Positions 2,755 through 59,144 of a stretch of DNA of 64,000 bases are shown piece by piece (within the stretch, counting starts at the first letter, position 1; every line of letters starts with the position of its first letter). Both the position numbers and the translations under genes were made by a program. The stretch comes from Sulfuritalea sp. Its GTDB lineage: Bacteria > Pseudomonadota > Gammaproteobacteria > Burkholderiales > Rhodocyclaceae. The stretch is taken from the NCBI GenBank assembly GCA_021738385.1, contig JAIPCF010000006.1, forward strand, positions 1-64,000, in the 5' to 3' direction. The notes under the pieces are model-generated. The model had not been told where the DNA came from and searched no databases. It saw nothing but the letters and a program-made list of their open reading frames with translations.

Positions 2755-2778
2755 GCGCTTCGTCAGCGCCGACTTTCA
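2755..2778 (-). repeat. 25-bp dispersed motif copy A (partial), overlapping the pckG stop codon
   Basis: TGAAAGTCGGCGCTGACGAAGCGC on minus strand. Confidence 0.6.
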
Positions 2779-4608
2779 GTCCACCATGGAAAGTTCGAAA
2801 AGCTCACGCTTGAGAGTCAAGGATCTCGGCATGCGGCTCTTCAGCTTGTCGAACCACTCGGCATGCAGTTTCAGTTCTTCGCGCCAGGCGGTGGTGTCCA
2901 CTTCGGTAAGATGCTCGAACTGGGCCTTGCTGATTTCATTGCTGCCGCTCCAGTCAAGATCTTCGAAACGAGGCATCCAGCCTAGAGCAGTTTGCTTTGC
3001 ATCGGCTTTTCCAGCACAACGACCAACGACCCATTTCAGTACCCGCATGTTTTCGCTGAATCCGGGCCAGATGAATCTGCCGTCGGCGTCCTGGCGGAAC
3101 CAATTCACCGTAAAGATACGCGGGGCATCCGTGATCTGATGTCCTATGCGTAGCCAGTGATTGAAGTAGTCACCCATGTGATAGCCGCAGAACGGCAGCA
3201 TCGCAAATGGATCGCGGCGCACCACGCCCTGTTGCCCGACGGCTGCGGCCGTGGTCTCGGAGCCGAGGGTCGCAGCCATATAAACCCCGAAATTCCAGTT
3301 GAAGGCCTCGAACACGAGTGGCACGGTCGTCGAACGGCGTCCGCCAAAAATGAATGCGGAGATCGGGACACCTATGGGACTCTCCCAATTCTCGTCAATC
3401 GACGGACACTGGCTGGCGGGAGCGGTAAAGCGAGAATTTGGGTGAGCCGCTTTGCGACCGGTTTCCTTGCCGATTTGCGGCGTCCAGTCTTGCCCTTGCC
3501 AGTCGACGCAGTGGGCTGGCGGCTCTTTGCTCATACCTTCCCACCAAACATCGCCGTCGTCGGTTAGCGCGACATTGGTGAAAATGACGTTTTCCTTGAG
3601 AGTCGCCATCGCGTTGAAGTTGGTCTTTTCGCTGGTACCTGGGGCAACACCAAAAAATCCGCTTTCCGGATTGATGGCGTAGAGACGCCCATCTTTGCCC
3701 GGCTTGATCCAGGCGATGTCGTCGCCGACGGTTGTGACCTTCCAGCCCCCGAGGCTTTCGGGCGGAATCATCATGGCGAAATTGGTCTTGCCGCAGGCCG
3801 AAGGGAAAGCGCCCGCGACGTAGGTCTTTTCACCCTCGGGCGATTCGACGCCAAGAATCAGCATGTGTTCTGCAAGCCAACCCTCGTCACGAGCCATGGT
3901 GGACGCGATGCGCAGTGCAAAACATTTCTTGCCAAGCAACGCGTTGCCGCCATAGCCCGAGCCAAAGGACCAGATTTCGCGCGTCTCGGGAAAGTGGCAA
4001 ATGTATTTGGTCTTGTTGCAGGGCCACTTGACGTCGGCCTGACCGGCTTCCAGCGGATGGCCAACGCTGTGCAGGCATGGGACAAAGACGCCATCGCTGC
4101 CGAGTTGGTCAAGCACCGCGCGGCCCATGCGGGTCATGATGCGCATATTGACCACCACGTAGGGGCTGTCCGAAAGTTCGATTCCGATATGCGCGATTGG
4201 TGAGCCGATCGGACCCATGGAGAATGGGACCACGTACATCGTGCGACCACGCATGCAGCCCTTGAACAGGCCGCGCAGCGTTTCCTTCATCTTGTCCGGA
4301 TGCTCCCAATTGTTGTTGGGGCCAGCATCTTCAGCATCCGGTGTGCAGACATAGGTGCGGTCTTCAACCCGGGCGACATCTGACGGATCGGACAAGACGA
4401 GATAGGAATTCTTGCGCTTCTCAGGGTTTAGCTTGATGGCGCTGCCGGCTGAAACCATCTGGGTGAAAAGACGGTCGGCTTCCTCCTGCGAGCCATCGCA
4501 CCAGCAGATATCGTCAGGCTGGGTGAGCGCTGCAACTTCGGCAACCCATGCGCTCAATTTGGCATGTTTGACGTAGGCAGGGGAAACGGTTTGGGTAGGC
4601 TGATTCAT
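2776..4608 (-). CDS. pckG: Phosphoenolpyruvate carboxykinase (GTP)
   Basis: 610 aa; [14 protein letters not shown]-loop-like motif and family-typical sequence throughout. Confidence 0.95.
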
Positions 4609-4958
4609 TTCGCGAAAATCTCCACTCTGATTTGAATTCGCGCCGGTCAGCCGGGTGGTCGCAATGTGAGGCGATCGACGGGGCCTTCGGCAGTCCGCAG
4701 GCTAGGGGCTAAATGGCCCGGGTCGCGGAGCTAAATTGAAAGCAATTATCCCACAATCGAAGTTCTGAATTCTTGATGGAACGATGGGTGGCAAGCAAGC
4801 CACTGAATACTGGGCCTGTTCATTGATCGGATACAAAAAGTTTGTGAAACGAATAGCGCGGATTGGATGCACTCGCCGGGCCATTCATTAACCAGAGAAC
4901 CGTTTCAGTCTCATCGGAGCCACAACCCACAATTGCACCGTGAAACCGTCGTATGCGG

Positions 4959-4983
4959 AAAAGTCGGCGCTGGCGACACGGCG
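4959..4983 (+). repeat. 25-bp dispersed motif copy B
   Basis: AAAAGTCGGCGCTGGCGACACGGCG. Confidence 0.9.
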
Positions 4984-5037
4984 ATACAATTGCTACCGAC
5001 GCAATTTGCGACTCAAGCAAACAGGAGAAGTCACTAA

Positions 5038-7320
5038 ATGGATGAAAGCATTCGCGCGGCTGCGCTGGAATACCATCGCAACCCCAAACCGGGCAAGATC
5101 GCGGTAACCCCGACCAAGGCATTAACCAATCAGGCCGACCTCTCGCTGGCCTACTCGCCCGGTGTTGCCGCTGCCTGCGACGAGATCGTGCGCGATCCCG
5201 CAACGGCGGCTCTGTATACCTCGCGCGCGAATTTGGTTGCAGTCGTCACCAATGGTACGGCGGTACTGGGCCTGGGCAATATCGGGCCACTGGCCGGCAA
5301 GCCGGTGATGGAAGGCAAAGGGGTGTTGTTCAAGAAATTCGCCGGCATTGATGTTTTCGATATCGAGATTGCCGAGAACGATCCAGAAAAACTGGTCGAC
5401 ATCATTGCCTCGCTGGAGCCGACTTTCGGCGGTATCAATCTTGAAGATATCAAGGCACCGGAATGTTTCTACGTTGAAGCTCGCCTGCGCGAGCGCATGA
5501 AAATACCGGTATTCCATGATGATCAGCACGGAACAGCGATTATTGCCAGTGCCGCGGTGCTCAACGGCATGCGCGTTGTCGGCAAGGATATTTCCAAGAT
5601 CAAGCTGGTCTGTTCAGGCGCCGGAGCAGCGGCGATTGCCTGTCTGGATTTGCTGGTCAGTCTCGGGCTGGATCCCGGAAATGTTTTCGCAGTCGATAGC
5701 AAGGGTGTGATCCACAGCGGGCGAGAAGGGCTCGATGCCTCCAAGGCACGCTATGCACAGACGACGGAAGCCAGGACCTTGGCCGAAGTTACGGTTGACG
5801 CTGATGTGTTCCTGGGATTGTCGACAGCGGGTGTATTGAAGCCCGAAATGGTCAAAACCATGGCGCGCGATCCGTTGATTCTGGCCATGGCAAATCCCGA
5901 CCCCGAAATTCTCCCTGAACATGCCAAGGCGGTTCGTCCCGACGCGATTCTAGGTACCGGGCGATCCGACTATCCGAATCAGGTCAACAATGTCTTGTGC
6001 TTTCCTTTCATGTTTCGCGGTGCCCTGGATGTCGGCGCGACGACCATCAACGAGGCCATGAAAGTTGCCGCTGTGAGGGCCATCGCGGATCTGGCGCACG
6101 CCGAGCAGTCCGAGGTGGTAACAGCTGCCTACGGCACCGAGGACTTGTCTTTTGGTCCTGAATACCTGATTCCCAAACCCTTCGATCCCCGGCTCATCAT
6201 CAAGATAGCCCCGGCGGTGGCGCAAGCGGCAATGGATTCCGGTGTCGCCACGCGGCCGATCGAAGACATGGAAGCCTACATTCATCGATTGAACGATTTT
6301 GTCTATCACACGGGACTCTTGATGCGTCCGGTGTTTATTGCCGCCAAGAACACGCCGGCGCGCGTGGTTTTTTGCGAAGGCGAGGACGAGCGTGTGCTGC
6401 GCGCAGTGCAAACCGTATGTGATGAAGGTCTGGCGCGACCGATCCTGATCGGGCGCCCCGAAGTGGTTGAGCACAGCATCACCCGTCATGGTCTGCGCAT
6501 TCGTCCCGGTACCCATTTCGAACTGATCAGTCCGGATTCTGATCCGCGCTACAAGGAATTGTGGCAGGACTACTACGCTTTGACCTCACGCAAGGGGATC
6601 AGTGTCGAATACGCCAAGCGCGAGATGAGGCGGCGCACCACGCTGATCGGTGCCATGCTGGTGCGGCACAACTACGCAGATGCGATGCTCTGCGGCACAT
6701 TTGGCAAGCACTCGTTGCATCTGCGCTACATCGACGACGTGATCGGCAGGAAGTCCGGGATCGGAAGTTACTACACCATGAATATGCTGATCCTGCCGCG
6801 ACGGATTCTGTTTATGGGTGATACGTACATCAACTACGATCCAACCGCGGAACAACTGGCAGAAATGACCTTGCTGGCTGCCGACGAAGTCGCGCGCTTC
6901 GGTCTGGCGCCCAAAGTCGCGCTGCTGTCGCATTCAAGTTTTGGCACCGAGGACACGCCTACCGCGATCAAGATGCGGCGTGCGCTAAAAATCTTGCGAG
7001 AAGTTGCGCCGGATCTGGAAGTCGATGGCGAAATGCACGGCGATGCCGCACTTTCTGAAGATATCCGGCACCAGGTGTTTCCAGATTCAACGCTTAAAGG
7101 TCAGGCCAACTTGCTGATCATGCCGACGCTGGACGCTGCAAACATCGCATTCAATCTGATCAAAACAGCCGCAGGCGACGGGTTGACGGTAGGACCCATG
7201 CTGCTCGGCGCGGCCCGTCCGGTGCATATCATGACGCCGACTGCCACGGTGCGTCGCATTGTGAATGTCACCGCCCTGCTGTCGGTTGAAGCGGAGCAAT
7301 TGGCAAAGTCCGGCGCCTGA
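5038..7320 (+). CDS. maeB: NADP-dependent malic enzyme with C-terminal phosphotransacetylase-like domain
   Basis: 760 aa; N-terminal malic enzyme ([22 protein letters not shown]) and C-terminal PTA-like domain. Confidence 0.93.
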
Positions 7321-7426
7321 ATCAGGGTATGCCAACTTTTCAACCGGCTTTCTGGCAATCGCATCGTTTTGCGACTGCGCTAATAGGACAGGCAGGAATG
7401 GGGAACTACCGGGGCGCAAGTCGATC

Positions 7427-8563
7427 ATGACCACGGCGCGCACCGCCTTGATTCTGACCGGTGGCGGTGCGCGTGCAGGCTATCAGGTCGGCGTGCTCAA
7501 GGCGGTTCGTGAACTGCTGCCAGAGGCTCACCGCAATCCATTTCCCATTCTGTGCGGCACTTCGGCCGGCGCGCTCAACGCGGCGTCAATGGCGGTATGG
7601 GCCGAGGATTTCTCCGCCGGTGTCGACAACCTGTTGAACGTCTGGGGAAACTTCACCGTGGATCAGGTGTATCGGGCCGATCCGCTAAGCATGGGTATCT
7701 CGGCCGCACGCTGGGTTTCCACATTGGCGCTTGGCTGGCTGACCAGGCAATCCCCACGCTCACTGCTTGACAATTCGCCGCTGCGTCAGTTGTTGAGCGA
7801 TAGCCTCGACTTCAGCCGTATCGGAAGGGCGATTGATAGCGGTGCTCTGCATTCGGTCAGCATAACTTGTTCCGGCTACTCAACAGGACAGGGTGTCAGT
7901 TTTTTCCAGGGAAGAGAAGGTATTGAACCCTGGCGCCGCAGTCAGCGAGTCGGCGCCCCGACAAAAATCGGGCTCGATCATTTGATGGCATCCAGCGCCA
8001 TTCCCTTCATTTTCCCGGCGGTACGCATCAACCGCGAATGGTTTGGTGACGGGTCGATGCGGCAGGTCGCGCCGGTCTCGCCAGCAATCCACCTGGGTGC
8101 CGACAAAATTCTGGTGGTTGGCGCCGGCCGTCGGATTGATGAAAATACACGTCCGAGAACCAGTATCTATCCGTCATTGGCGCAAATTGCAGGGCATGCA
8201 CTGTCAAGCATATTTCTCGACAGCATGTCGGTCGATCTGGAGCGGATGAGTCGCATCAACAATACCCTGTCGCTGATTCCGGAAGAAGTCCGTCGCGAGA
8301 AGGGAATGAGCCTGCGTCCTATCGAGGTATTGAACATCGCTCCGTCGCAGCGTCTTGATCACTTGGCGGCGAAGCATGCCAAGGCTTTGCCATGGCCTGT
8401 ACGCACCATGCTGCGAGGTTTTGGCGCAATGAATCGAAATGGTGGCGCCCTGACCAGTTATCTACTTTTTGAGCCAGCCTATACGAAGGCCTTGATTGAG
8501 TTGGGCTATGCGGATACTCTAGCGCGCCGCGAAGAAGTCTGTCAGTTTCTGGAAGTTTCTTAA
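7427..8563 (+). CDS. Patatin-like phospholipase family protein
   Basis: GGGARAGYQVGVLKA oxyanion region, GTSAGALNA nucleophile, DGS; start moved to MTTARTALILTGG. Confidence 0.88.
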   Translation: MTTARTALILTGGGARAGYQVGVLKAVRELLPEAHRNPFPILCGTSAGALNAASMAVWAEDFSAGVDNLLNVWGNFTVDQVYRADPLSMGISAARWVSTLALGWLTRQSPRSLLDNSPLRQLLSDSLDFSRIGRAIDSGALHSVSITCSGYSTGQGVSFFQGREGIEPWRRSQRVGAPTKIGLDHLMASSAIPFIFPAVRINREWFGDGSMRQVAPVSPAIHLGADKILVVGAGRRIDENTRPRTSIYPSLAQIAGHALSSIFLDSMSVDLERMSRINNTLSLIPEEVRREKGMSLRPIEVLNIAPSQRLDHLAAKHAKALPWPVRTMLRGFGAMNRNGGALTSYLLFEPAYTKALIELGYADTLARREEVCQFLEVS

Positions 8564-8678
8564 TGCTGTAGATTAGGTTAGGCATTTAACTCATTTATTT
8601 ATAACAATAATTTCCTTTACAATAAATCAAAATCAAGTTAGCATTAGTCGCAATCGACCGTTCCCGGGAGGGGTTTTC

Positions 8679-9638
8679 TTGAAAAATGCACTGCTAGTAT
8701 TCTTGATCGCCGGGATTGTTGGCGTTGCTACCACGCCAGCCGCTGCCGATGCAGCGCCGAAAAAGAAAACCGCAACGGCGAAGAAACACACACCGCGCGC
8801 GGCAAAATCTGCGCGAATTAAAAAGACACTGCATACCCGAACCGCGAAGCGAGGCGCATCCCTTGACGATGCCCAGCACTTGGCCGTGCGCTCGTCCGCC
8901 GCTTTGGTGCTCGATCAAGCAACGGGCAAGGTACTTTTCGAGAAAAACCCTGGTGCCGTATTGCCGATTGCTTCGATCACCAAACTGATGACAGCGATGG
9001 TGGTGCTTGATGCCAAGCCTGATCTCAGGGAAGTGCTGAAGATCGGCACAGATGATATCGACACTCTCAAGGGCACCCGGTCCAAGTTGCGCGTGGGCAC
9101 GCAACTCGAGCGTGAAGAGATGCTCCGTCTGGCTTTGATGTCTTCAGAAAATCGTGCCGCATCGGCCTTGTCGCGACATTACCCCGGTGGTCGCGACGCA
9201 TTTGTAGCAGCCATGAACGCCAAGGCAGAATCTTTGCATCTGGTCGATACGCGTTTCGAGGATCCGACCGGATTAACCGCGGCCAATGTCTCAAGTCCGC
9301 GTGACCTGGCAAAGATGGTGGATGCCGCTCATCAATATCCGCTGATTCGTGAATTTTCCACAGCGACTGAGGGAGAAGTGAGTATTGCCGGCCGTTCACG
9401 CCACTTCCACAATACCAATACGCTGGTGAACAATAGAAACTGGGAAATCGGCCTGTCCAAAACGGGCTATATCAGCGAGGCAGGAAAGTGTCTGGTCATG
9501 CAGGCATGGCTCAACAACAAGCCCACAATCATTGTATTGCTCGATTCCTGGGGTCGGATGACCCGTATCGGTGATGCCAATCGAATCAAGCACTGGATGG
9601 AGAGTGCCGCGCTGGCAAGCGACGGACGTCCAGGCTGA
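8679..9638 (+). CDS. pbpG: D-alanyl-D-alanine endopeptidase / serine-type carboxypeptidase (PbpG-like)
   Basis: TTG start; signal peptide; SITKLMTAM (SxxK), SEN, KTG motifs. Confidence 0.85.
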   Translation: MKNALLVFLIAGIVGVATTPAAADAAPKKKTATAKKHTPRAAKSARIKKTLHTRTAKRGASLDDAQHLAVRSSAALVLDQATGKVLFEKNPGAVLPIASITKLMTAMVVLDAKPDLREVLKIGTDDIDTLKGTRSKLRVGTQLEREEMLRLALMSSENRAASALSRHYPGGRDAFVAAMNAKAESLHLVDTRFEDPTGLTAANVSSPRDLAKMVDAAHQYPLIREFSTATEGEVSIAGRSRHFHNTNTLVNNRNWEIGLSKTGYISEAGKCLVMQAWLNNKPTIIVLLDSWGRMTRIGDANRIKHWMESAALASDGRPG

Positions 9639-9658
9639 AATCTCGTCACGGGTGATTC

Positions 9659-9683
9659 GGGCCGCCTGCGGGCGGCCTTTTTA
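9659..9683 (+). terminator. Rho-independent terminator after pbpG-like gene
   Basis: gggccgcc-tgc-gggcggcc-ttttt. Confidence 0.8.
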
Positions 9684-9835
9684 TTGCCAGGCTCCCGGTT
9701 GATGGCGCGGCCAACAGAGCGGCGCGCAGCCCGCACGGAAGAGCGGACAGGCTGCTAAAATCGTCGGCACACAAAACTGCCCGCCAAGCCGCCGCTGAAG
9801 ACCCGCGAGCAGCGTTTTCTTAAGCCTCTTGATTT

Positions 9836-10804: not shown

Positions 10805-10806
10805 GC

Positions 10807-12655: not shown

Positions 12656-12662
12656 AACGGCT

Positions 12663-13847
12663 ATGCGCGCCATATTCTGGTTGTTGATTCTCTCCGGGCT
12701 GGCGGTCGGTATCGCGCTCGCCGCAATTTACAATGAGGGTTACGTGTTGCTGGTGCTGCCACCCTGGCGTGCGGAAATATCGCTCAACCTGTTTCTGGTT
12801 GCGGCGGTTCTTGGGTTTTTAGTCGTCTATCTGTTGACGCGAGCAGTCAGCTTTACGCTGGGTCTGCCGAGCATGGTGGCGGCATACCGACGTCGGCGCC
12901 AGAAAGAAAAAGCGTCACGTGCATTGCGCGACGCGTGGCGATTGCTGCAGGAAGGCCGTTACGGACACGCCATGCGTGCCGCTGAAAAGTCACCGGTGGA
13001 GCCTGAAACGTCGGGAATGCTGGCGCTTGCGGGATGGCGCGCGGCCCACGCCATGCGCGACAGCGCGAGCACCAGTGAATGGGCAGAGCGGTTGCGCAGC
13101 CATGACGACGACAGCCTGCGCGCTGCTCGCTTGATGACTGAGGCGGAACTCGCGATTGCAGATCGTCGCTTCGAGGATGCGCAGACTGCCTTGCGGCAGC
13201 TGAACAAAAAAGAAGGTCGTCACATTGCGGCTTTGCGATTGAGCCTGCGCGCGGAGCAAGGTTTGGGCAACTGGCGTGAAGTGGCCCGCCTGGTGCGCCA
13301 GTTGCAGAAGCACAAAGCCTTGACCCCGGAACAGGCGGCCCCAATCCGCAGTCGGGCGGTGCGCGAGGCCCTGCGCGGATTGGGCAACGACCCCTCGGCA
13401 CTCATGCGCTACTGGCGTGAGCTAGATGACAGCGACCGCGCCGAAGCATCGCTCGCACAGGAAACAGCGCATGCACTTGCTGCATCGGGCGATTGCCGCG
13501 AAGCCCAGCGCGTGATCGAAGACGCGCTCAACGACAACTGGGATTCCGCGCTGGCGTTGGCCTATGGCCAATGCGGCCAACCCGGCGAGCCGGCTGGTGA
13601 TGTGCTCGGGCGCATCGCGCAGGCCGAAAAATGGCTTGCACACCATCCGCGTGACGGTGCCCTGTTACTGACGCTGGGCCGCTTGTGCCGCCAGCAACAG
13701 TTGTGGGGCAAGGCACGCAGCTATCTCGAAGCGGCGCTGGCCGTCGCACCCTCACGCGCCGCGCATGTCGAACTTGCGCAGTTGCTCGACCAACTCGAAG
13801 AGTCGGCGCTGGCAGTACGGCACTACCGCGAAGCGGCCGTGCTCTAA
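12663..13847 (+). CDS. hemY: HemY-like heme biosynthesis-associated TPR protein
   Basis: Two N-terminal TMs plus TPR-like region; hemCDXY order. Confidence 0.88.
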   Translation: MRAIFWLLILSGLAVGIALAAIYNEGYVLLVLPPWRAEISLNLFLVAAVLGFLVVYLLTRAVSFTLGLPSMVAAYRRRRQKEKASRALRDAWRLLQEGRYGHAMRAAEKSPVEPETSGMLALAGWRAAHAMRDSASTSEWAERLRSHDDDSLRAARLMTEAELAIADRRFEDAQTALRQLNKKEGRHIAALRLSLRAEQGLGNWREVARLVRQLQKHKALTPEQAAPIRSRAVREALRGLGNDPSALMRYWRELDDSDRAEASLAQETAHALAASGDCREAQRVIEDALNDNWDSALALAYGQCGQPGEPAGDVLGRIAQAEKWLAHHPRDGALLLTLGRLCRQQQLWGKARSYLEAALAVAPSRAAHVELAQLLDQLEESALAVRHYREAAVL

Positions 13848-13994
13848 GGAAGTCGGTCAGCTTACAGAGCCTCACCAGGAAGGCGCTCAGCGTGCCTGGG
13901 ATTCCGCTTCGCGGGCAACTCTGATGAAGCACCGCGCAGCAGGGCGATCGAGAACAAGACTCTTTCCTGACCGTTGCGGATGGTGACGCGGCGC

Positions 13995-14474: not shown

Positions 14475-14614
14475 GAGGCCGAATCGGAATCCCTGTCAGA
14501 AAGTAAAAATGCCAGCCTGCGCATTCAATCAAGATTGAATCGGCACAGCCGGAGCTGTGCCAGCTGCAACTGCAACCGAAACAAATCCAGGCAGCGCCGA
14601 CCCGGTACGAGCAT

Positions 14615-15118: not shown

Positions 15119-15245
15119 GATTTCTCCCTATTGATCAAGTAAACGTGAATGGAAAACGAGCTAAACCAAAAAGCGGGACGCTCCATTGGAGCGGCCGGAT
15201 AGCCTTCAGGTCTTCCCGGTATGTTCATCGGGTAAGTGTCACGGT

Positions 15246-20249: not shown

Positions 20250-20418
20250 GATTTGGGCTGGGTACTTGCGAAGATCGTGGCGGGCGCGGTGGTTTTCCCT
20301 GCGCGGTGGCGGCTATTCCGAACGAATGTCGGCGAGAATAATCCCGATCAATGCCCATGGCAAGTGCGGATGCCATTGCAATCGAGCTGCGGCCTGGCGA
20401 TTGAGCGATGCCAGCTGA

Positions 20419-31855: not shown

Positions 31856-32869
31856 TCAGCGCGTCTCCGTTTCCAGCAATCCGTACCTGCGTATATTTTT
31901 GTCTGCCTGCGCCTGAATCCTTGCAATGGTTTCGACCGCCGGATTTTTGCCAAACAGGTGAGCAAAGCGCTTTTGCGGACGCAAATAGTCCTCGACCGGG
32001 AGCGGGCGCCGTATCGCCAGCGCCGACTTTACTTCGCCATGCTCGGCTTCGAATACCGGGAAAATACCGGTTTCCTTGGCGAGGCGGGCGATGCGAATGG
32101 TGTCGTGCGAGGCGGTTCCCCAGCCCAGCGGGCAGGGCACCAGAATATGAATATAGCGCGCACCACGCATGCCCATCGCCCGCGTTACCTTGTACTCCAG
32201 ATCACGCAAATCAGCCACAGTTGCGGTAGCGACGTAAGGGATTTCATGCGCCATGGCAATGGCCGGGACGAACTTGCCCTGGCCGAACGGGTTGCCCGGC
32301 TCGGGTCCGAGCGGCATGGTGGTTGCCGTGCGTGCTGACGAGGGGGTCGCCGAACTGCGCTGTACGCCGGTGTTCATGTAACCGCCGTTGTCGTAGCAGA
32401 TGTAGAGCACGTCGTCGTTGCGCTCGAACATGCCGGACAGGCAGCCAAATCCAATATCGGTGGTACCGCCGTCACCGCCTTGCGCTACCACGCGCGTGTC
32501 GCCTCCCTGGCCTTTTTGCTTCTTGATCTTGATCGCGGCGGCAATGCCGGTGGCTACGGCCGCAGCGTTGCCGAACAGGGAATGAATCCAGGGAATCTGC
32601 CAGGAGGTTTCCGGGTACGGCGTGGAGAAAACTTCCAGGCAGCCGGTGGCGTTGGCAGCAATCAGTTGGTTTTTGCTGGCGATCATTGCTGCGTCAATGG
32701 CGTAACGCGCACCGAGCGCCTCGCCGCAGCCCTGGCAGGCACGATGGCCGGAATTCAGCGAGTTGGTTCGTTGCATGTTGGCTTGCACGCTGCGATCTTC
32801 CGGCGCCAGCAAGCGGTTGCCGACGGTAAAGGTGCCGGTCTGGTAGAAGCTGATGGGTTGTAGCGACAT
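31856..32869 (-). CDS. 2-oxoacid:acceptor oxidoreductase beta (TPP) subunit
   Basis: GHRACQGCGEALGARY, GGDGGTTDIGFGCLSG, YDNGGYMNTGVQRS. Confidence 0.88.
   Translation of the reverse strand: MSLQPISFYQTGTFTVGNRLLAPEDRSVQANMQRTNSLNSGHRACQGCGEALGARYAIDAAMIASKNQLIAANATGCLEVFSTPYPETSWQIPWIHSLFGNAAAVATGIAAAIKIKKQKGQGGDTRVVAQGGDGGTTDIGFGCLSGMFERNDDVLYICYDNGGYMNTGVQRSSATPSSARTATTMPLGPEPGNPFGQGKFVPAIAMAHEIPYVATATVADLRDLEYKVTRAMGMRGARYIHILVPCPLGWGTASHDTIRIARLAKETGIFPVFEAEHGEVKSALAIRRPLPVEDYLRPQKRFAHLFGKNPAVETIARIQAQADKNIRRYGLLETETR
32007..32031 (-). repeat. 25-bp dispersed motif copy H, inside oxidoreductase beta-subunit CDS
   Basis: TAAAGTCGGCGCTGGCGATACGGCG; translated KSALAIRR. Confidence 0.88.
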
Positions 32870-36132: not shown

Positions 36133-37662
36133 ATGACCGGCCGCCTGTTTGCGGCGCTACTGGCCGTTACGCTGGTTTTCCGGTTCTGGCTGGCGGCGGC
36201 GTTTCCTATCACGGGTGACGAGGCCTATTTCATTTGGTGGGGCTGGAAGCCCGACTGGGGGTTCTACGACCATCCGCCGATGATCGGCTGGTGGTTGGCC
36301 GTCTTGCTGCAAATCGCCGAGGTCGAGTGGTGGCTGCGTTTGCCGTCCATCCTGTTGCCGGCCGTGCTGGCGCTCGGTACATACTGGGCGCTACCGCGCG
36401 TGATCGACGGACCGGGTGAAGAGCGGAGATTATGGGCGGCGACTCTGGTGCTACTGGCTCCGGTAAATGTCTGGAACGTGTTCATAACCACCGATACACC
36501 GCTGATCTATTTCAGCGTGCTCTCCGGCCTGGCATGGATTCGGGCTTCACATGACGACTCGCCACGCTGGTATGTCATTGCAGGCGCACTGTTGGCCGGT
36601 GCCGTGCTTTCGAAATACTTTGCGGCGATCCTGGGTTTTGCCTATCTGGTGGATGTGCTGCGCCGGCGCACACGTGGTGCGTTTGCCGGGCTGGTCATCG
36701 CCTATGCCTGTACGTTGCCGGCATTGGCCCTGATGGCATGGTGGAACAGCGGCAACTGCTGGCCCAACTACATGTTCAATTTCGTCAATCGCCATGGAGA
36801 TGCCGGCTGGTCGCTGAAGACACCGCTGCTGTATGTCGTGACGCTTGCGTACGTACTCGGTCCGCCGGTGTTGTGGCTGGTTTGGCGACATCTGCGTTCG
36901 GAACGCCGTATCGTCAGCGCCGAGTTTTCCTATTCCGTGTCGCTCGGCACGCTGGCCTGGCTGCCATTCCTGCTGTTTGCCGGCCTGTCGCTGGTCAAAC
37001 AGATAGGCCTGCACTGGCTGCTTTCCTTTGTGCCTTTTACCCTGATCTGGTTGACATTGCGGCTGTCTCCCGCAAGTCTGCGTCGACTCGGGTTGTTTTT
37101 TGCTGGCTTCGCAACACTTCACATTGCCGGCATCCTGGTGGTTTCCCGCCTGCCCCTGGAGACCTGGCAAGAAACCCGGCTCTATGACGGCATCGTGTTG
37201 ACCTTCGAGCATCAGCCGCTGGCGCGTGAACTCGAGCCCAATTTCAAGAGCGAGCGCGGCGAGCGAGTGTTGGCAATGGATGGGTATTCGAATGCGGTGA
37301 CGCTGGGCTATAACCTGCGCAGATATGTGGTGGTGTTCGGCGAGGCTTCGAGTCACGCCCGGCATGACGACTTGATGACGGATTTCCGCACTCTGGAAGG
37401 ACGCGATTTTCTGATATTGCGTAAGTCGCAACCCAATGTTGACGATTACCGTCGATACTTCCGTCAGGTCAGCGTGGATAGCTTCGAGGTCCGCGGCGCA
37501 AAATTCTGGCGCGTAAAGGGCGATGGCTTCGACTACGCAGCCTATCGCGACGGGGTGCTGGCGTCGGTCCGTCAGAAGTACTATGCAATTCCGGCCTGGC
37601 TGCCGCAAACTGCGTGCTATATGTGTGATCGTTACTTTCCAGGGCAAACATGTCGTCGCTGA
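36133..37662 (+). CDS. Glycosyltransferase family 39 / ArnT-like membrane protein
   Basis: 509 aa, multi-TM; DEAYFIWWGWKPDWGFYDHPPMIGWW. Confidence 0.85.
   Translation: MTGRLFAALLAVTLVFRFWLAAAFPITGDEAYFIWWGWKPDWGFYDHPPMIGWWLAVLLQIAEVEWWLRLPSILLPAVLALGTYWALPRVIDGPGEERRLWAATLVLLAPVNVWNVFITTDTPLIYFSVLSGLAWIRASHDDSPRWYVIAGALLAGAVLSKYFAAILGFAYLVDVLRRRTRGAFAGLVIAYACTLPALALMAWWNSGNCWPNYMFNFVNRHGDAGWSLKTPLLYVVTLAYVLGPPVLWLVWRHLRSERRIVSAEFSYSVSLGTLAWLPFLLFAGLSLVKQIGLHWLLSFVPFTLIWLTLRLSPASLRRLGLFFAGFATLHIAGILVVSRLPLETWQETRLYDGIVLTFEHQPLARELEPNFKSERGERVLAMDGYSNAVTLGYNLRRYVVVFGEASSHARHDDLMTDFRTLEGRDFLILRKSQPNVDDYRRYFRQVSVDSFEVRGAKFWRVKGDGFDYAAYRDGVLASVRQKYYAIPAWLPQTACYMCDRYFPGQTCRR
36904..36928 (-). repeat. 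25-bp dispersed motif copy I, inside GT39 CDS
   Basis: AAAACTCGGCGCTGACGATACGGCG; sense translation RRIVSAEF. Confidence 0.85.
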
Positions 37663-42697: not shown

Positions 42698-42702
42698 AGC
42701 CT

Positions 42703-49921: not shown

Positions 49922-49958
49922 TCTGCAATCATATCTTCAGTACGCTTGTCGCGGGTGC

Positions 49959-49983
49959 AACTTCTCGGCGTTGGTGATACGGC
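49959..49983 (+). repeat. 25-bp dispersed motif copy K
   Basis: aacttcTCGGCGTTGGTGATACGGC. Confidence 0.8.
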
Positions 49984-50000
49984 AAATTAGCCTCCGCCGT

Positions 50001-51191: not shown

Positions 51192-51377
51192 GTTTTTCGC
51201 ATATTACCGTTCCCGGCCCGGCGGGTGCGGCAGATACCAGGAACAGGGCTTGCGGCAGTGCCGCAAAAACTGGATGCCTCGTCTCCCAAAATGCATTGTT
51301 TCCTGTTTGGTTGGGTGAAACTCGGCTACCATGCAATTACCTCGGCATGCCTATCCATAAAGTTATAGATCCCTGCC

Positions 51378-54300
51378 ATGACAACGATCAACGACAAGGC
51401 TGCAGCACAGCAACTGCGAGAGTATGAGCTGATCTTTCAGCATGCGCAGGTCGGCATCCTTGTGGTTCGCGATCGCGTCATTCAGCACTGCAATCCGCGC
51501 CTCGAAAAACTTCTTGGCTATGGACCCGGTGAACTGATCGGACAGAACACCCGGCTCTTCTATCAGAGTGATCAGGCTTGGCGCGATACAGGTCAGCGTG
51601 CCTATCCGGTAATAGCTGAAACCGGTAGTTTTACCGGAGAGGTGGAGTTCCGACGTCGCGACGGCGGCGTGATCTGGTGCCAGATCATCGGTAGCCTGGT
51701 CAATCATGATAATCCGGACGAGGGCCATCTCTGGCTCTATAACGATCTCACCGAGAAACGTCAGGCCGAGAATGAGCTGAATGCGCTGCTGCAAGAGCAG
51801 ATGCTTATTTTCGAGCGCGCACATACCGGCATCATGTTTGTGCGCGACCGGGTGATCCTGCGCTGTAACCCCCGCTTTGAGGCCATGTTCGGGCATTCGC
51901 CGGGCGTGTTGATCGGACAATCGACTCGCGTGCTTTTCCCCGACGAGAAAACCTGGGCTGAAAATGGCGAGCGGGTCTACGCGATTCTTAGCGAGACTGG
52001 CGTCTTTGATGACAACCTGGACTACGTGCGTGGCGACGGTTCGCCGATCTGCTGCCATGTCATCAGCAGCCTGCTTGAAGCGGGCAACCCGGCAGCGGGC
52101 ACGGTCTGGTTGTATGAGGACATCACCGCTCGCCGCGCCACGGAGCAGGCGCTGGCTCAAAGCCACTGGGAGCAGCAGCTGATTTTCGACAATGCGTTGA
52201 TTGGAATTTCTTATCAACGCAATCGAACAATCTTGCGCTGCAATCACCGGCTCGAGGAAATGTTTGGCTATGCGCAGGGGGAACTCGCCGGAAAGTCTGC
52301 GCGAGTGATGTTCACCAGCGAGAGCGACTGGGCAGAGACCGGCCGTCGCATTTACCGCGAAACCGGTGGCGCAAAGACCTTTGACGGAGAAATTCACTAC
52401 TGCAAGCGTGACGGCACACCATTTTGGGTTCGTGTCATCGGCCGCACTGTCGATGTCGCGGATGGCAGCGAGACCTGGATCTGGACCTACGATGACATCA
52501 CCGCGCGCCGCGCGGCCGAGGAGGCGCTGACCAAAAATGCCGCAGAGTACGCGCTGATTTTCGACAACGCGCTGATTGGTATTTCCTATCATCGCAACCG
52601 CGTCATTCAGCGCTGCAATCCGCGTTTCGAGGAGATACTGGGCTACGGACCGGGCGAACTCGCCGGCAAGTCAACCCGGATCTACTACGCCAGTGATGAA
52701 GACTGGGAGGCAATGGGTCGTCACGTGTTCGGTGCGGATACCCATCGACAAACCTTCGAGGATGAACTCTGCTTCTATCGGCGTGATGGATCGCCGGTTT
52801 GGGTTCATGTCATCGGCCGCACTGTTGACTCCCCCGATGGTGAAACCTGGATCTGGATTTACGACGACATTACCGCCCGCCGTGCCACGGAGCGGGCACT
52901 GGAAGTGAGCCATCAGGAACAGCAGCTGATTTTCGACAATGCGCTGATCGGCATTGCCTACATGCGCGACCGGGTACTGCTTCGCTGCAACAGGACATTC
53001 GAAGAAATTTACTGTTTCGCGCCGGGCGAACCCATCGGCAAGACCACGCGCTTGATGTTCTTCAGCGAAGAAGATTTCGAGAACATCGGACATCGCTTGC
53101 AAGCTGCTGGTGAGCAGGGCCAGGGATTCTCCGAAGAAGTTCGTTACCAGCGGCAAGACGGAACGCCTATCTGGGTGCGCGTCAATGGACAGCCGATTCA
53201 GGAGGCCCAGGGCCAGGTCTGGATCTGGACTTGTCAGGATGTCACCCGGCAACACCAGGCAGAGGAAGCGCTGCGCCTGAGTTATCGTGAGATGGAGCAA
53301 CGGGTGGCCGAGCGCACCGCAGAAGTCTCGCGGCAATTGAACTTCATGGAACAGTTGATTGAGTCGATTCCCGGTCCGGTGTTCTACAAGGATAGAGGCG
53401 GGCGCTATCTGGGTTTCAATCAGCGCTATCTTGAGTTTCTGGGAATGCCTCGCGACAAGTTGCTTGGCGCCACGGTATATGACATCGCGCCCAAAGAACT
53501 TGCCGATCGCTACAAAGCTGCCGATGATCAATTGTTCAATAAGCCTGGCGCGCAAGTGTATGAGACACAGGTTCAGCCGGCCAATGGCGAGCGGCGCGAC
53601 GTCTTGTTCCACAAGGCCACGTTTTCAGACGCCGACGGCCGCGTGGGCGGACTCATCGGCGTGATGTTCGACATTACCGAGCGCAAGCGCATGGAAGAGC
53701 GGATGCAGCAGGCTGCAACCGTTTTTGACACCAGTCTGGAGGGCATCACCATCACCGCGTCGGATGGTTCGATCATTGCCGTTAACCGTGCTTTCACCGA
53801 GATCACGGGTTACAGCGAGAGCGAAGTGATAGGGCGCAATCCGCGGATTTTGCAGTCGGATCGACAGGAGCCGAGCTTCTATCGCGAGATGTGGGACACC
53901 ATTGGTCGTGAGGGTCGCTGGCAGGGTGAGCTTTGGAACAAGCGCAAGGATGGCAGCCTGTACCCGGAATCGCTGACCATCAGTGCCGTCAAAGACGCTA
54001 CCGGCAGGCTTATGCACTTTGTCGGTGTTTTTTCCGACATCACAGAGATCCGGCGGGCCAATGATCTGCTCGCTCATCAGGCCCACCATGATCATCTTAC
54101 GGGCCTGCCAAACCGCCTGCTGCTGGAAGACCGGCTGCATGGCGCTTTGCTGCGTGCCCAGCGCGAACAGTCGCAGGTGGCGGTGATGTTTATCGATCTG
54201 GACCGCTTCAAGAACATTAACGACAGCCTCGGCCACAACGTTGGCGATACTGTTTTACGCGAAGTGGCCAGACGTTTCGGCAACTTGATACGCGAGTCGG

Positions 54301-55361
54301 ATACGGTTGCACGGATGGGAGGTGATGAGTTCCTGATTGTGATGGAGGGCATTCACGATCCGACCATGGTTTCGCGTATTGCCGACAAGATTCTGGAAGA
54401 TCTGCGCCTGAATCCGGTGGTTCTGGAGCAGGAGTTCTATGTCGGTGCCAGTATCGGCATTGCCTTCTTTCCGCAGGATGGTGGCGATTCAACAAATTTA
54501 ATAAAGAGTGCCGATGCGGCGATGTATCGTGCAAAAGAGCGGGGACGCAATACCTACGAGTTTTTTACCCGGGAACTGATGCAGTCCTCGCTCGATCGCT
54601 TCAGGATGGAAACCGATCTGCGGCGCGCCATCGAACGCGACGAGCTGTTGATCTATCTTCAGCCGCAGTTCTCACTCAAGACCGGCGAACTGCTTGGGGC
54701 GGAGGCCTTGGTGCGCTGGCTGCATCCGCAAAAGGGTTTGGTGATGCCGGCAAGGTTCATCCCGCTGGCGGAAGAATCGGGTCTTATCGTTGCGCTGGGT
54801 GAATGGGTGCAGCACGCCGCCTGTGCCCAATGGGCGGCTTGGGCGGCGGCCGGGCTCAGACCGGGTGTCCTGTCGATCAATGTTTCGGGGGTCGAATTCC
54901 GTCGCGGACAGATCCAGGGCATGGTGCGTGAAGTGCTCGAGGAAACCCGTCTGTCGCCTGCGCTGCTGGAACTGGAAATCACCGAAAGTGCAATCATGAG
55001 CCAGGTGGAAAACAGCGTTCAGGTGCTGCATGATCTTCGCGAGATGGGGATCAATCTGGCGATTGACGATTTCGGTACCGGTTATTCTTCTTTGGCCTAC
55101 CTCAAGCGCTTGCCTCTCGATAAGCTGAAGGTTGACCAGAGCTTCGTGCGGGGGCTCCCTGGCGATTCCGAAGATGGTGCGATTGTCCAAGCCGTCATCG
55201 CACTTGGACACAGCCTGCAACTGAAAGTTATCGCCGAAGGCGTGGAAACCGAGCGTCAGCGCGAGTTTCTGATCGTCGCGGGTTGCGATGAGATGCAGGG
55301 CTATCTGCGTGGCAAGCCAATGCCGGTTGCAGATTTCAACGGCAAATTTCTCGGCGTTTGA
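51378..55361 (+). CDS. Diguanylate cyclase/phosphodiesterase with seven PAS domains
   Basis: Five ~125-aa paralogous PAS units plus two divergent PAS; GGDEF and EAL signatures intact (MGGDEFLIV, LGAEALVRW). Confidence 0.95.
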   Translation: MTTINDKAAAQQLREYELIFQHAQVGILVVRDRVIQHCNPRLEKLLGYGPGELIGQNTRLFYQSDQAWRDTGQRAYPVIAETGSFTGEVEFRRRDGGVIWCQIIGSLVNHDNPDEGHLWLYNDLTEKRQAENELNALLQEQMLIFERAHTGIMFVRDRVILRCNPRFEAMFGHSPGVLIGQSTRVLFPDEKTWAENGERVYAILSETGVFDDNLDYVRGDGSPICCHVISSLLEAGNPAAGTVWLYEDITARRATEQALAQSHWEQQLIFDNALIGISYQRNRTILRCNHRLEEMFGYAQGELAGKSARVMFTSESDWAETGRRIYRETGGAKTFDGEIHYCKRDGTPFWVRVIGRTVDVADGSETWIWTYDDITARRAAEEALTKNAAEYALIFDNALIGISYHRNRVIQRCNPRFEEILGYGPGELAGKSTRIYYASDEDWEAMGRHVFGADTHRQTFEDELCFYRRDGSPVWVHVIGRTVDSPDGETWIWIYDDITARRATERALEVSHQEQQLIFDNALIGIAYMRDRVLLRCNRTFEEIYCFAPGEPIGKTTRLMFFSEEDFENIGHRLQAAGEQGQGFSEEVRYQRQDGTPIWVRVNGQPIQEAQGQVWIWTCQDVTRQHQAEEALRLSYREMEQRVAERTAEVSRQLNFMEQLIESIPGPVFYKDRGGRYLGFNQRYLEFLGMPRDKLLGATVYDIAPKELADRYKAADDQLFNKPGAQVYETQVQPANGERRDVLFHKATFSDADGRVGGLIGVMFDITERKRMEERMQQAATVFDTSLEGITITASDGSIIAVNRAFTEITGYSESEVIGRNPRILQSDRQEPSFYREMWDTIGREGRWQGELWNKRKDGSLYPESLTISAVKDATGRLMHFVGVFSDITEIRRANDLLAHQAHHDHLTGLPNRLLLEDRLHGALLRAQREQSQVAVMFIDLDRFKNINDSLGHNVGDTVLREVARRFGNLIRESDTVARMGGDEFLIVMEGIHDPTMVSRIADKILEDLRLNPVVLEQEFYVGASIGIAFFPQDGGDSTNLIKSADAAMYRAKERGRNTYEFFTRELMQSSLDRFRMETDLRRAIERDELLIYLQPQFSLKTGELLGAEALVRWLHPQKGLVMPARFIPLAEESGLIVALGEWVQHAACAQWAAWAAAGLRPGVLSINVSGVEFRRGQIQGMVREVLEETRLSPALLELEITESAIMSQVENSVQVLHDLREMGINLAIDDFGTGYSSLAYLKRLPLDKLKVDQSFVRGLPGDSEDGAIVQAVIALGHSLQLKVIAEGVETERQREFLIVAGCDEMQGYLRGKPMPVADFNGKFLGV

Positions 55362-55526
55362 ATTTGCCGGACCGATTCTGCTGAAGGCGGAAGCAAAGTC
55401 CCTATTTCTGCGATGCCAACCCGGGAAAACCTGTACTTCGGGCGTTGAATTGCCGGGCAACGCCGATGAAGCGGCCATAAAAAATTTGGAAGCGCAGAAG
55501 CCATCGGTATCGCTATGCTTGGAAGC

Positions 55527-56990
55527 ATGTCGCAACGGCTGACCCTATCTCGTGCTGCTCACTTGCTGGGCATTTCGCGCGTAGCTTTGCAAAAACGCAT
55601 ACGCGAGGGCGAACTGCCGTCTTTTGACGGCATGGTGACCGTCGACGAACTGCAACGCGGCTGGCCGGAATTGAATTTGGAGGAATCCGGCAGCTTCGAA
55701 AAAACCCGGGAAATTCGTGAGGATGCATTTGCCAGACGCTTGCGTGAACGCGTACTACCGACCCAGGAAGCGCTCGCGCAGCGCTTGTTTGCGCAAGGGC
55801 AGGAACTGGCCGAATTGCAGCGTACCCTGACGCGTTATCACACCCTGTTCGAATTGATACAAGTCAGGCTCGCGGCTTCACCGCCGCCTGCAGCAGAAGA
55901 TATTGGAAGGCTGCTCGATGAAGGTATGGCGCAGGCGCTGGGAGCACCTGCTCCCGAGCACGACATGGCCGCGCTCGATGCTATGCTGCGCGTCATGTCG
56001 GCGCACGTTACGGTCAGACCATCCGGTCGCGAATTCTTTGTCGAAGGTTCGGAAACGCTGCTGAAAGCGGCCTTGCGCGCCGGTTTGTCGCCCAATTATG
56101 GTTGTGGCAACGGTGTATGCGGGTTGTGCAAGGCGCGCGTGGTGGAAGGCGATGTGCGCACCGTGTCACCCTCCGACTATCGATTTACAGAGGCCGAAAA
56201 GGCGCAGGATCACGTCCTGATGTGCGCCTGTACAGCGCTCAGTTCCGATCTTGTGCTGGAGGTGCTGGAGGCAGGCGCACCGGAAGATATTCCCGAGCAG
56301 CGCATCGTCGCTAAAGTGCGCAGCATTGAGGTGCTGAGCGACGACGTAATGCGCTTGCATTTGCAAACTCCGCGCAGCAATCGCCTGCGTTTTCTGGCGG
56401 GCCAGCGTGTCACCCTGGGTGTCAGCGCCGACGTGGCCGGGGGCAGCGACCTGCATGGCGAATTGCCGGTAGCGAGTTGCCCCTGCGATGACCGCAACCT
56501 GATATTTCATGTCAGCCGTGCGCACAGCCGTCCCGCCAGCGCCGACTTTTCACGGTACGTTTTCGATGGCAAGGCCAAACCCGGTGACGAAGTTTCCGTG
56601 TGGGGCCCATGGGGCCGGTTTGTATTGGAAGAAGGTTCCCCGCGCCCACTGGTATTCATCGCCATTGACACGGGCTTCGCACCCATCAACAGCCTGCTCG
56701 AACATGCCATGGCGGTGGATGCCGCAGAGACCATCACGCTTTACTGGGCGAGTTCAAGGCCGGGCGGCCAGTATCTTCCCAAGCAGTGTCGTGCCTGGGA
56801 AGAGGCGCTGGACGAGTTCAGCTATCAGGCGCTGGCTGTTGATGAATTGCCGGCGGCACTTGCGGCACATTCAGCTTTGCCGGGATGCGATGTCTACCTC
56901 GCTGGTGCGGCGGAACAGGTAGAGCAATTGGCCACGGCCCTGCTTGCAGCGGGTGTGCCTCCGCAACAGTTGCATGTCGAGTCGCTTTGA
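55527..56990 (+). CDS. HTH - 2Fe-2S ferredoxin - flavin/NAD(P)H reductase fusion protein
   Basis: LTLSRAAHLLGISRVALQKRIREGELPSFDG (HTH), YGCGNGVCGLCKARVVEG..HVLMCACTA (2Fe-2S), reductase VWGPWGRFVL, FIAIDTGFAPINSLLEHA. Confidence 0.85.
   Translation: MSQRLTLSRAAHLLGISRVALQKRIREGELPSFDGMVTVDELQRGWPELNLEESGSFEKTREIREDAFARRLRERVLPTQEALAQRLFAQGQELAELQRTLTRYHTLFELIQVRLAASPPPAAEDIGRLLDEGMAQALGAPAPEHDMAALDAMLRVMSAHVTVRPSGREFFVEGSETLLKAALRAGLSPNYGCGNGVCGLCKARVVEGDVRTVSPSDYRFTEAEKAQDHVLMCACTALSSDLVLEVLEAGAPEDIPEQRIVAKVRSIEVLSDDVMRLHLQTPRSNRLRFLAGQRVTLGVSADVAGGSDLHGELPVASCPCDDRNLIFHVSRAHSRPASADFSRYVFDGKAKPGDEVSVWGPWGRFVLEEGSPRPLVFIAIDTGFAPINSLLEHAMAVDAAETITLYWASSRPGGQYLPKQCRAWEEALDEFSYQALAVDELPAALAAHSALPGCDVYLAGAAEQVEQLATALLAAGVPPQQLHVESL
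56527..56550 (-). repeat. 25-bp dispersed motif copy L, inside HTH-ferredoxin-reductase CDS
   Basis: AAAAGTCGGCGCTGGCGGGACGGC; sense translation SRPASADF. Confidence 0.82.
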
Positions 56991-57021
56991 CATCTTTTCA
57001 ACTCATCTTGACCCACTCATC

Positions 57022-57390
57022 ATGACTCAAGCGCAGCGAATCATTTCCATTCAGGCACAGGGTATCGATCCCGAACTCGACGCCTGTACCTCGGCCGAAC
57101 CCTTCGCACTGATGGTGCTCGGTGACAGCATGGAGCCCGAGTTTCTCGAGGGTGAAATCATTCTGATCGAGCCCGAGGGATTGGCTACCGACGGCTCGTT
57201 CGTTCTCGCTCAACTGGATGGTGAATGGATTTTTCGCCAGTTGAAACGGCAGGATGAAGGCTGGCGCTTGCAGGCCCTGAACCCGACCTATCCCGGTGCG
57301 AACATTTCAGGTCTCGACGCGGTCAAAGGAGTCATCATCCAGAAATCAAAACCCGGAAATCGCCGGGCAACCAAGCGTTACGTGGAGTAA
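57022..57390 (+). CDS. S24/LexA-like peptidase domain protein without HTH
   Basis: ALMVLGDSMEPEFLEGEIILIEPEG; start at MTQAQR. Confidence 0.8.
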   Translation: MTQAQRIISIQAQGIDPELDACTSAEPFALMVLGDSMEPEFLEGEIILIEPEGLATDGSFVLAQLDGEWIFRQLKRQDEGWRLQALNPTYPGANISGLDAVKGVIIQKSKPGNRRATKRYVE

Positions 57391-57395
57391 GTCCG

Positions 57396-57629
57396 ATGCC
57401 GTACTACATTTATCGCGTCACATCACTGGGACCGGTTCCCCGGTTGGAGAAACTCGCCCAGTTCGAAGTCTTCAAGGAGGCCTCGCAGGAGGCCAAACGC
57501 CTGCGGCGTGACACTGATCTTGGGGAGGGCGTAGCCATCAAGACCATCTTCGCGGAAACCGAGTTGCAAGCCGAAGATCTGCTCAGCCAGCCGCGCGGAG
57601 AAGAACCGATGACGGGAGAGGATTACTAG
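57396..57629 (+). CDS. Small conserved hypothetical protein
   Basis: 77 aa, 5 nt after the previous gene; MPYYIYRVTSLGPVPRLEKLAQFEVFKEASQEAKRLRRD. Confidence 0.7.
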   Translation: MPYYIYRVTSLGPVPRLEKLAQFEVFKEASQEAKRLRRDTDLGEGVAIKTIFAETELQAEDLLSQPRGEEPMTGEDY

Positions 57630-57633
57630 CGCC

Positions 57634-58086
57634 GTGGTTGACGAAGCAGCCTTTCGTCATGCCCGAGGAGAGATCAATCGGCTGCCCTGTATTTTTGAGC
57701 GTGCGCTGGCCGCGCGTCATGCGGCATGCGAACTGGCGGTGTCGCACCAGATAGCCGAGCGAGAAACGGTAGCGTGCGCCCAGCCGGTGGCGCGGGCGGT
57801 TTGTGCGCAGATGTTGGCGCTTCTTAGAGAAAAGTCTGCTTTTGCACTGGGTCTGGCTGGCACCCGGCGCATATTGCCGCATGCGATGGTGATGAAGATT
57901 CAGTGCGGTGGGCTGGATGGATTGAAAGCCTTGCTGGACGCCGACGCGATCGCACCGGACATACGCCGGCTGGTTCGGATGGCACAAGAACAATTCGGTG
58001 ATCTGGAAAAGCTGCCATTTTCCGAAATCGTGCAAGGGGTGGCGGCCTGGAAGCCGCGCCGTCGCCATGGCAGGGCGCCCGGATGA
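57634..58086 (+). CDS. Hypothetical cysteine-containing protein
   Basis: 150 aa, GTG start; C-x12-C-x15-C-x8-C plus MKIQCGGLDGL; tightly packed in operon. Confidence 0.65.
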   Translation: MVDEAAFRHARGEINRLPCIFERALAARHAACELAVSHQIAERETVACAQPVARAVCAQMLALLREKSAFALGLAGTRRILPHAMVMKIQCGGLDGLKALLDADAIAPDIRRLVRMAQEQFGDLEKLPFSEIVQGVAAWKPRRRHGRAPG

Positions 58087-59144
58087 TCGCCGACATGGCA
58101 GCGCTGGTGAGCGCGGTGCAAACCAATTGCGATATCGCCGATGCACGCCACGCGCGCGATGTCAGCCTGTGCACCTATCTGCTTGGCATGCGCGAGTTCT
58201 ACCGTTGGGAACACGAACTGCCCTGCGGTGAGTCGCCACCGCGCGACGACGTCGGGCGCTGGATCGCTGAACGCGAGGCACGCTGGGAGGACATTGCCGA
58301 GGAAGACTTCGTCGCGCTACCGGTGGCCGGACAAAGCTTCGAGCCCTTTGCCGCGCAGCAGGTCAATGACGCGCTGGCTGGCAGCGGACTGGTCTATGGC
58401 GCGGGCCTGGGACGGTTTCACAAGCCACACTTCTTTCTTGGCAGACTTGATCGCGATGAACAGCGCGGCAGTGCGCGGCTTCTGGTTTGCGGCTGCGAAT
58501 ACGCCCGCGATGTATCGGCCATTCCAGCTGCCTCGCAAGGTACGACGATGATCGTGCGCCGCGAAGCTCTGCGTCAGTGGCTTTGGGAAAAGGCCGAAGG
58601 ATGGAATCTCAAACAGCGCGACGGCGCGCTGAAATCAGCCTTGCTCGCCTACGGCTTCGACGTCGATCCGGTGGCCGCCATTGAACGCATGGTCGATGGC
58701 GAAATTGAAACACTGGTCTTGCATGAAGAGGGCGAGATTGCCGCCGGGCATTTGCTAGGCGATTGCTGGCCGTCAATGCTGGCGAGTTTCAGTGGCAAGC
58801 GCGCGGAACTGCTGGCTCGCGCGGTGCGAGACAACCTGGCGGATTGCCTGGTGACGCTACCGACATTGCTGCAGAGAGGTCGCCATGACTCGTTGCATTT
58901 CTGGTTCTCCACATTCGATGGTCTGCGTCGCGAACTGTTTCCAAGCCTGGTCACGGCATATACGGAGACAAAAGTCGGCGATGGTGACACGGCGAAGAAT
59001 GCCAGCTTGATAAGCATGGCAGAGCTGGAAGCTGCCGCCGAGGTGGGAGCAGTTCAGTTTGCGACACTTGGTCGGCGCCTTCTGGAGCTGGACGAGCCTG
59101 AGATTGAGGAACTGTCGCTTGAGGCGGCCGCGATTGCGCTTTAG
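58083..59144 (+). CDS. Hypothetical protein, last gene of the HTH-reductase/S24 operon
   Basis: 353 aa; 4-nt overlap with upstream gene. Confidence 0.7.
   Translation: MIADMAALVSAVQTNCDIADARHARDVSLCTYLLGMREFYRWEHELPCGESPPRDDVGRWIAEREARWEDIAEEDFVALPVAGQSFEPFAAQQVNDALAGSGLVYGAGLGRFHKPHFFLGRLDRDEQRGSARLLVCGCEYARDVSAIPAASQGTTMIVRREALRQWLWEKAEGWNLKQRDGALKSALLAYGFDVDPVAAIERMVDGEIETLVLHEEGEIAAGHLLGDCWPSMLASFSGKRAELLARAVRDNLADCLVTLPTLLQRGRHDSLHFWFSTFDGLRRELFPSLVTAYTETKVGDGDTAKNASLISMAELEAAAEVGAVQFATLGRRLLELDEPEIEELSLEAAAIAL
58970..58994 (+). repeat. 25-bp dispersed motif copy M, inside hypothetical CDS 58083-59144
   Basis: AAAAGTCGGCGATGGTGACACGGCG; sense translation KVGDGDTA. Confidence 0.88.

Follow-up and report, generated by a model that had tools for sequence, protein, structure and literature searches.

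The 64,000-nucleotide stretch examined here (herein the window; positions 1 through 64,000, forward strand, of contig JAIPCF010000006.1, GenBank assembly GCA_021738385.1) comes from a Sulfuritalea species of the Rhodocyclaceae and carries a dispersed motif of about 25 bp, AAAAGTCGGCGNTGGYGAYACGGCG, on both strands. A first-pass annotation had listed 13 copies and judged chance a very unlikely origin for them. With up to 3 mismatches allowed, 11 copies are found in the window and a mean of 0.00 in 100 dinucleotide shuffles, which bears out that judgement; the coordinates given for the copies were accurate to within 2 bases. The 11 copies are all among the 13, and the remaining two fall short: that at 2755 is a half match, and that at 49959 is doubtful (21.6 bits with a matrix derived from the window, <16 bits with a larger matrix). 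A position-weight scan adds a copy at 13798 (31.8 bits) that had been overlooked. The copies and their settings are as follows (G002 is a closed genome of the same genus).

2753 through 2777, minus strand: partial copy in which just the 5' half is intact, GAAAGTCGGCGCTGACGAAGCGCTA, lying on the 3' margin of the gene at 2776 through 4608; scored by the G002 matrix at 18.2 bits
4959 through 4983, plus strand: intergenic copy identical to the consensus, upstream of the malic enzyme/PTA gene at 5038 through 7320; 0 mismatches, 40.6 bits
13798 through 13822, plus strand: copy within the gene at 12663 through 13847; the G002 orthologue has the motif at the same codons, ungapped
18383 through 18407, minus strand: copy where no gene could be called with confidence; 1 mismatch
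19098 through 19122, plus strand: copy where no gene could be called with confidence; 0 mismatches
20418 through 20442, plus strand: intergenic copy, first member of a direct pair with a 79-bp spacing; 1 mismatch
20497 through 20521, plus strand: intergenic copy, second member of the direct pair; 1 mismatch
26161 through 26185, minus strand: intergenic copy with convergent open reading frames (ORFs) on either side; 2 mismatches
32007 through 32031, minus strand: copy within the thiamine-pyrophosphate (TPP) enzyme gene at 31856 through 32869 (PF02775), read as KSALAIR; used for the cross-genus codon comparison
36904 through 36928, minus strand: copy antisense within the PMT_2 glycosyltransferase gene at 36133 through 37662; 2 mismatches
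42491 through 42515, plus strand: copy between convergent genes, perhaps in a short ORF; 2 mismatches, 26 bits
56526 through 56550, minus strand: copy antisense within the Fer2-domain gene at 55515 through 56990; 3 mismatches, 33 bits
58970 through 58994, plus strand: copy within the DUF6866 gene at 58083 through 59144; 0 mismatches

The direct pair at 20418 through 20521 encloses a dyad, CTGGATTCCGGCGGCCGCCGGAATGACGG, possibly a hairpin like those of repetitive extragenic palindromic (REP) elements or the mark of a local duplication.

The first-pass annotation had left the question of a genome-wide excess to a wider scan, and the excess is very large: the source genome (3.34 Mb, 82% complete) holds 564 copies at up to 3 mismatches (261 plus, 303 minus), and the reversed pattern used as a control gives 0. 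Copies are present in all 24 of the other sampled genomes of the genus, ranging from 21 to 578 and mostly from 230 to 578; G004 has 578, and the low-copy congeners are G016 (21 copies) and G021 (94). Among named genomes the exact motif occurs mainly in Sulfuritalea, Rugosibacter, Sulfurisoma, and other Rhodocyclaceae, and G002 is 89 to 90% identical to some of their motif-bearing loci, including those of Sulfuritalea metagenome-assembled genomes (MAGs).

The anatomy of the site was defined in G002 (3.80 Mb, one contig) from an evenly spaced sample of 1.6 Mb, using a refined matrix and a threshold of 16 bits, with genes called by a simple purpose-made hexamer model. The consensus is RRRAGTCGGCGCTGGCGRYACGGCGAYY, at a density of about one site per 5 kb. 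At the chosen threshold 310 sites are found and the control gives 0; relaxing it to 10 bits adds 13 sites and tightening it to 20 bits removes 8, with 0 to 1 control hits. Information is confined to positions 0 to 28 and the flanks carry none; because it ends so sharply, there is no larger element around the site. Sites are split evenly between the strands (160 plus, 150 minus; p = 0.61), and in the 1.6-Mb sample no consistent strand bias or polarity relative to the replication origin and terminus was found along the chromosome. They are spaced a little more evenly than at random (variance/mean 0.92), and close pairs are fewer than expected.

In this genome, with 91% of its DNA coding, genes contain 216 sites (70%) and intergenic DNA 87, with 7 more at gene edges; the intergenic enrichment has p = 4e-23. 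The densest class is intergenic DNA between convergent genes (31 sites in 17.5 kb), and intergenic sites often stand within 30 bp of a stop codon; those within genes are distributed evenly over gene length. All reading frames on both strands are used, although three of the six classes hold most of the genic sites (same-strand phases, 6/24/81; opposite-strand phases, 36/5/64). An origin in a codon repeat or protein motif is ruled out by this use of every frame and both strands, despite the dominance of three classes; the first-pass view that the motif is not a codon-phase effect thus stands, with the qualification that the frames are used unequally.

Comparison of orthologues bears on how sites arise. 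In the TPP enzyme gene, aligned across 16 genomes, the motif stands at the same codons in five genera; G084, from a further carrier genus, has a GTCGACG version of it there, the non-carrier genera have unrelated codons with no insertion or deletion, and G004 has no motif match at that position. The codon alignment clearly points to substitution, not insertion, as the origin of this site. A wider survey set G002 genes against other fetched loci in 66 comparisons, some of these loci having been fetched because they bear the motif: 33 orthologues have the motif (22 ungapped nearby), 4 have a weak or dialect form, and 29 lack it (14 ungapped). At the survey sites that lie in gapped regions, the alignments would also permit insertion. 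After removal of the loci selected for the motif (anchor loci), sites are seen to sit in the less conserved parts of genes, with a flank identity of 0.69 vs. 0.76 for random windows.

Three further genera carry dialects of the motif, GTCGACG (G084), GTCAG(C/T)C (G152), and GTCAGTC (G049), for which controls at the same matrix score give 0 in G084 and G152. The GTCGGCG, GTCGACG, GTCAGCC, and GTCAGTC forms share the frame AAAGTC-N12-ACGSCG: AAAGTC and ACGSCG are conserved, and the CTG at positions 12 through 14 is replaced in other dialects. When 131 genomes of the family were surveyed with AAAGTC-N12-ACGNCG, the pattern proved abundant in genera g1, g24, g26, g54, g62, g80, and g82 (our numbering), as well as in a single g35 species; g39 and g61 have less of it, and the remaining genomes are near background. 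Of 120 genomes from about 50 other families of the order, only G299 is slightly above background. The motif is thus established as a genome-wide, sharply bounded, dialect-forming family limited to a set of Rhodocyclaceae genera. Two nearly motif-free genomes hold local clusters: several copies at 4.7 through 12 kb of contig C45 in G299, perhaps acquired from a carrier or due to MAG contamination, and a cluster of motif or dialect copies at 1461 through 1502 kb of C1 in G121, perhaps a segment acquired from a carrier.

Carriers group together on a gyrB tree, where the carrier label needs 4 changes vs. a shuffle average of 10, and most of them fall in two strongly supported groups. Genus g45 (G068), which has no copies, lies inside one carrier group, and g61, with a GACG dialect, is nested among GGCG carriers. 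The pattern fits inheritance combined with dialect shifts and losses; several independent gains would also be compatible with it.

Sites are scarce in DNA that appears to be acquired. Three of 80 20-kb stretches of G002 are site-free, and these contain conjugation genes (TraG_N, TraC_F_IV, TraI_2), type I restriction genes, and an E2/ThiF/JAB defence cluster; in genes of atypical composition, sites are about half as dense as in mid-range genes. One site-free locus (L186 and L187; C1, 1.93 through 1.99 Mb), with F-type conjugation genes and type I restriction, is probably an integrative conjugative element, and another (L155; C1, 470 through 490 kb), coding for a Prok-E2/ThiF/JAB protein and an AAA ATPase, is probably a defence island. 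The island deficit, which comes from a small sample of three stretches, matches the behavior of Neisseria uptake sequences, but a nucleoid signal could produce the same deficit.

Taken together, we consider that the motif probably serves in Rhodocyclaceae as the uptake sequence for natural transformation of a sequence-specific kind; of the roles suggested in the first-pass annotation, an uptake signal is the one that the evidence favors. A cell-surface receptor, probably a minor type IV pilin, would bind the 25- to 28-bp site on extracellular DNA and the pilus would draw the bound DNA in; ComEC would then pass one strand inward, and DprA and RecA would recombine it with the chromosome. Preferred uptake of DNA with good sites would lead recombination to copy sites into homologous places, and the proposed preference for site-bearing DNA would explain a spacing of about 5 kb between sites in shared DNA and their rarity in new islands. 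A shift in receptor preference would let the sites of a lineage drift to a new dialect, and where specificity is lost, perhaps as in G016, sites would decay. Receptor binding, uptake preference, and molecular drive are the parts of this scheme that we infer.

Discrimination between DNA sequences at the uptake step is known from just two families, Neisseriaceae and Pasteurellaceae (PMC12616744), and the closest parallel is the DNA uptake sequence (DUS) of Neisseriaceae, for which eight dialects are described (Frye et al. 2013, PMC3630211). DUS lie at permissive positions of the core genome, and less conserved regions are reported for both DUS and the uptake signal sequence (USS) (PMC2397512). 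Like DUS, whose receptor is ComP, the Rhodocyclaceae motif occurs on either strand, in genic and intergenic DNA, with copy numbers of hundreds to thousands, at permissive core positions; it is rare in acquired DNA, forms genus dialects around a conserved part, and occurs in bacteria with type IV minor pilins and ComEC. It differs in length (25 to 28 bp vs. 10 to 12 bp) and density (about one per 5 kb vs. about one per 1 kb), is unrelated in sequence, with no conserved counterpart of the CTG core that DUS require, has no excess of inverted pairs at terminators, and is so far a candidate uptake signal. The USS of Pasteurellaceae, for which an uptake model in Haemophilus influenzae uses a 31-bp sequence (PMC7811141), is likewise a long, extended motif found chromosome-wide on both strands in permissive regions. 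The H. influenzae-type USS (Hin-USS) AAGTGCGGT loosely resembles AAAGTCGG, perhaps by chance. Preferred reading frames are a further feature shared with USS. The second half of the Rhodocyclaceae motif is G+C-rich (TGGCGRYACGGCG), unlike the A/T tracts of USS, the USS core GCGG is missing from its dialects with AAAGTCAG, and its density is lower; neither USS core, AAGTGCGGT or ACAAGCGGT, with flanking A/T tracts was found in the G002 motif.

Competence machinery is available but does not discriminate carriers from non-carriers. Of 40 genomes, 39 have a ComEC that scores above the family cut-off, G016 and non-carriers among them, and the ComEC of G021 is a fragment; DprA is present in 13 of the 14 genomes examined, and a ComP_DUS pilin (PF16732) occurs in carriers and non-carriers, 41 of 42 genomes in all. 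The gene for the ComP_DUS-family pilin of G002 adjoins a GspH/FimT-type pilin gene. Competence gene loss was set aside as the cause of the low count in G016, where ComEC, DprA, ComP_DUS-family, and GspH pilins are all present; the count may well reflect a recent loss of specificity.

Several observations weigh against an uptake sequence. The competence genes and ComP_DUS pilin are equally common in motif-free genera and in the 21-copy G016, and because the machinery is the same in carriers and non-carriers there is as yet no genomic tie of the motif to uptake. No dprA match was found in G004 despite its 578 copies, and the dialect carrier G084 has no match to PF16732 or PF12019. Site density is about fivefold below that of DUS or USS, and inverted pairs of the Neisseria type are absent, with one plus-minus pair at <60 bp in the 1.6 Mb of G002. 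Gaps lie near the site in 26 of the 66 orthologue comparisons, and between genera sites are no better conserved than random windows drawn from the same genes; they turn over, being kept or lost. At least 120 viral contigs (L279 through L398; host flanks of proviruses included) carry a copy, some several, and those chosen by one copy have extra copies at 0.052/kb vs. 0.139/kb in host DNA, a depletion of only 2.7-fold under the same ascertainment; host flanks are perhaps the reason that it is so weak. We found no report of uptake or competence in these bacteria and no paper linking Sulfuritalea or Rhodocyclales with uptake sequences, in a search that left subscription journals largely outside; the string AAAAGTCGGCG appeared only in unrelated papers. 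A match to an already described repeat family was likewise sought, with neither an Rfam family nor a describing paper found.

Among the alternatives, binding sites of a chromosome-organizing or nucleoid protein, one every few kilobases and so a dense analogue of matS, SlmA-binding sites (SBS), or parS, survive best, though we think them unlikely. Chromosome-wide, evenly spaced occurrence on two strands, a long specific motif, and absence from acquired islands would all suit such a role. However, there is no origin-terminus or strand pattern (strand and position likewise lend no support to the segregation signal of the first-pass annotation), G016 and G021 live with 21 and 94 copies and the nested g45 with none, about two thirds of sites lie within genes at permissive positions, and the observed dialect shifts suggest less stability than one would expect of a structural site. 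Of similarly low probability is a reading in which an undescribed protein, and no uptake pilus, recognizes these hundreds of 25-bp sites and their genus dialects as labels of self on the core chromosome, serving, for example, recombination, segregation, or defence; if so, the sites would be genome-wide addresses of a new class.

It is very improbable that the sites are recombination hotspots or translocation signals like Chi or the FtsK orienting polar sequence (KOPS), recognized by a helicase-nuclease or a translocase. Such signals are also repeated short chromosomal motifs, hundreds of copies in core DNA would be in keeping with them, and an island deficit would be expected here too. At about 8 bp, Chi and KOPS are short, and their orientation follows replication; the Rhodocyclaceae motif, by contrast, is about 25 bp long, shows no strand bias, polarity, or origin-terminus distribution (in which it also differs from matS), and is absent in sister genera. 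We give as little credence to a minimal parasitic or interspersed repeat that inserts its own copies, in the manner of REP elements or miniature inverted-repeat transposable elements (MITEs), which the first-pass annotation had also considered. The many dispersed copies, the sites in gapped orthologue regions, and the local 79-bp duplication at 20418/20497 speak for it; yet the absence of information outside the 28 bp leaves no element body, there is no inverted repeat, the TPP-gene site appears to have arisen by substitution without insertion or deletion and to have been rewritten to the local dialect, and genes hold 216 of the 310 sites even though insertions of 25 bp would disrupt reading frames. 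A transcription terminator or regulatory RNA element, the latter another first-pass suggestion, would suit the density between convergent genes, the proximity to stop codons, and the TTTT that ends one strand, but can hardly be upheld when neither strand of the consensus forms a hairpin above shuffles (z = -0.86 and -0.05), an Rfam scan of the window gives 0 matches at the gathering score, and most sites are genic on either strand.

Some other k-mer excesses were examined. Those of ACAACCTCTAC in G083 and CACAGAGGA in G154 were set aside, the first being a repeat within one stretch and the second a local repeat; locus L271 of G154 also holds CCACAGAGGACACAGAGG in several closely placed copies with no relation to the motif. 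The top k-mer excess of the window itself is due to a 15-bp tandem repeat, GCCAAAAAGCCAGCG, of about 11 to 16 copies in an Ala/Lys-rich ORF region at 563 through 1132 that is histone H1-like by composition.

The probable uptake sequence described here is a candidate self-recognition tag for the uptake of kin DNA in environmental Sulfuritalea-like bacteria. If this role is confirmed, Rhodocyclaceae would be the third family with sequence-specific DNA uptake.

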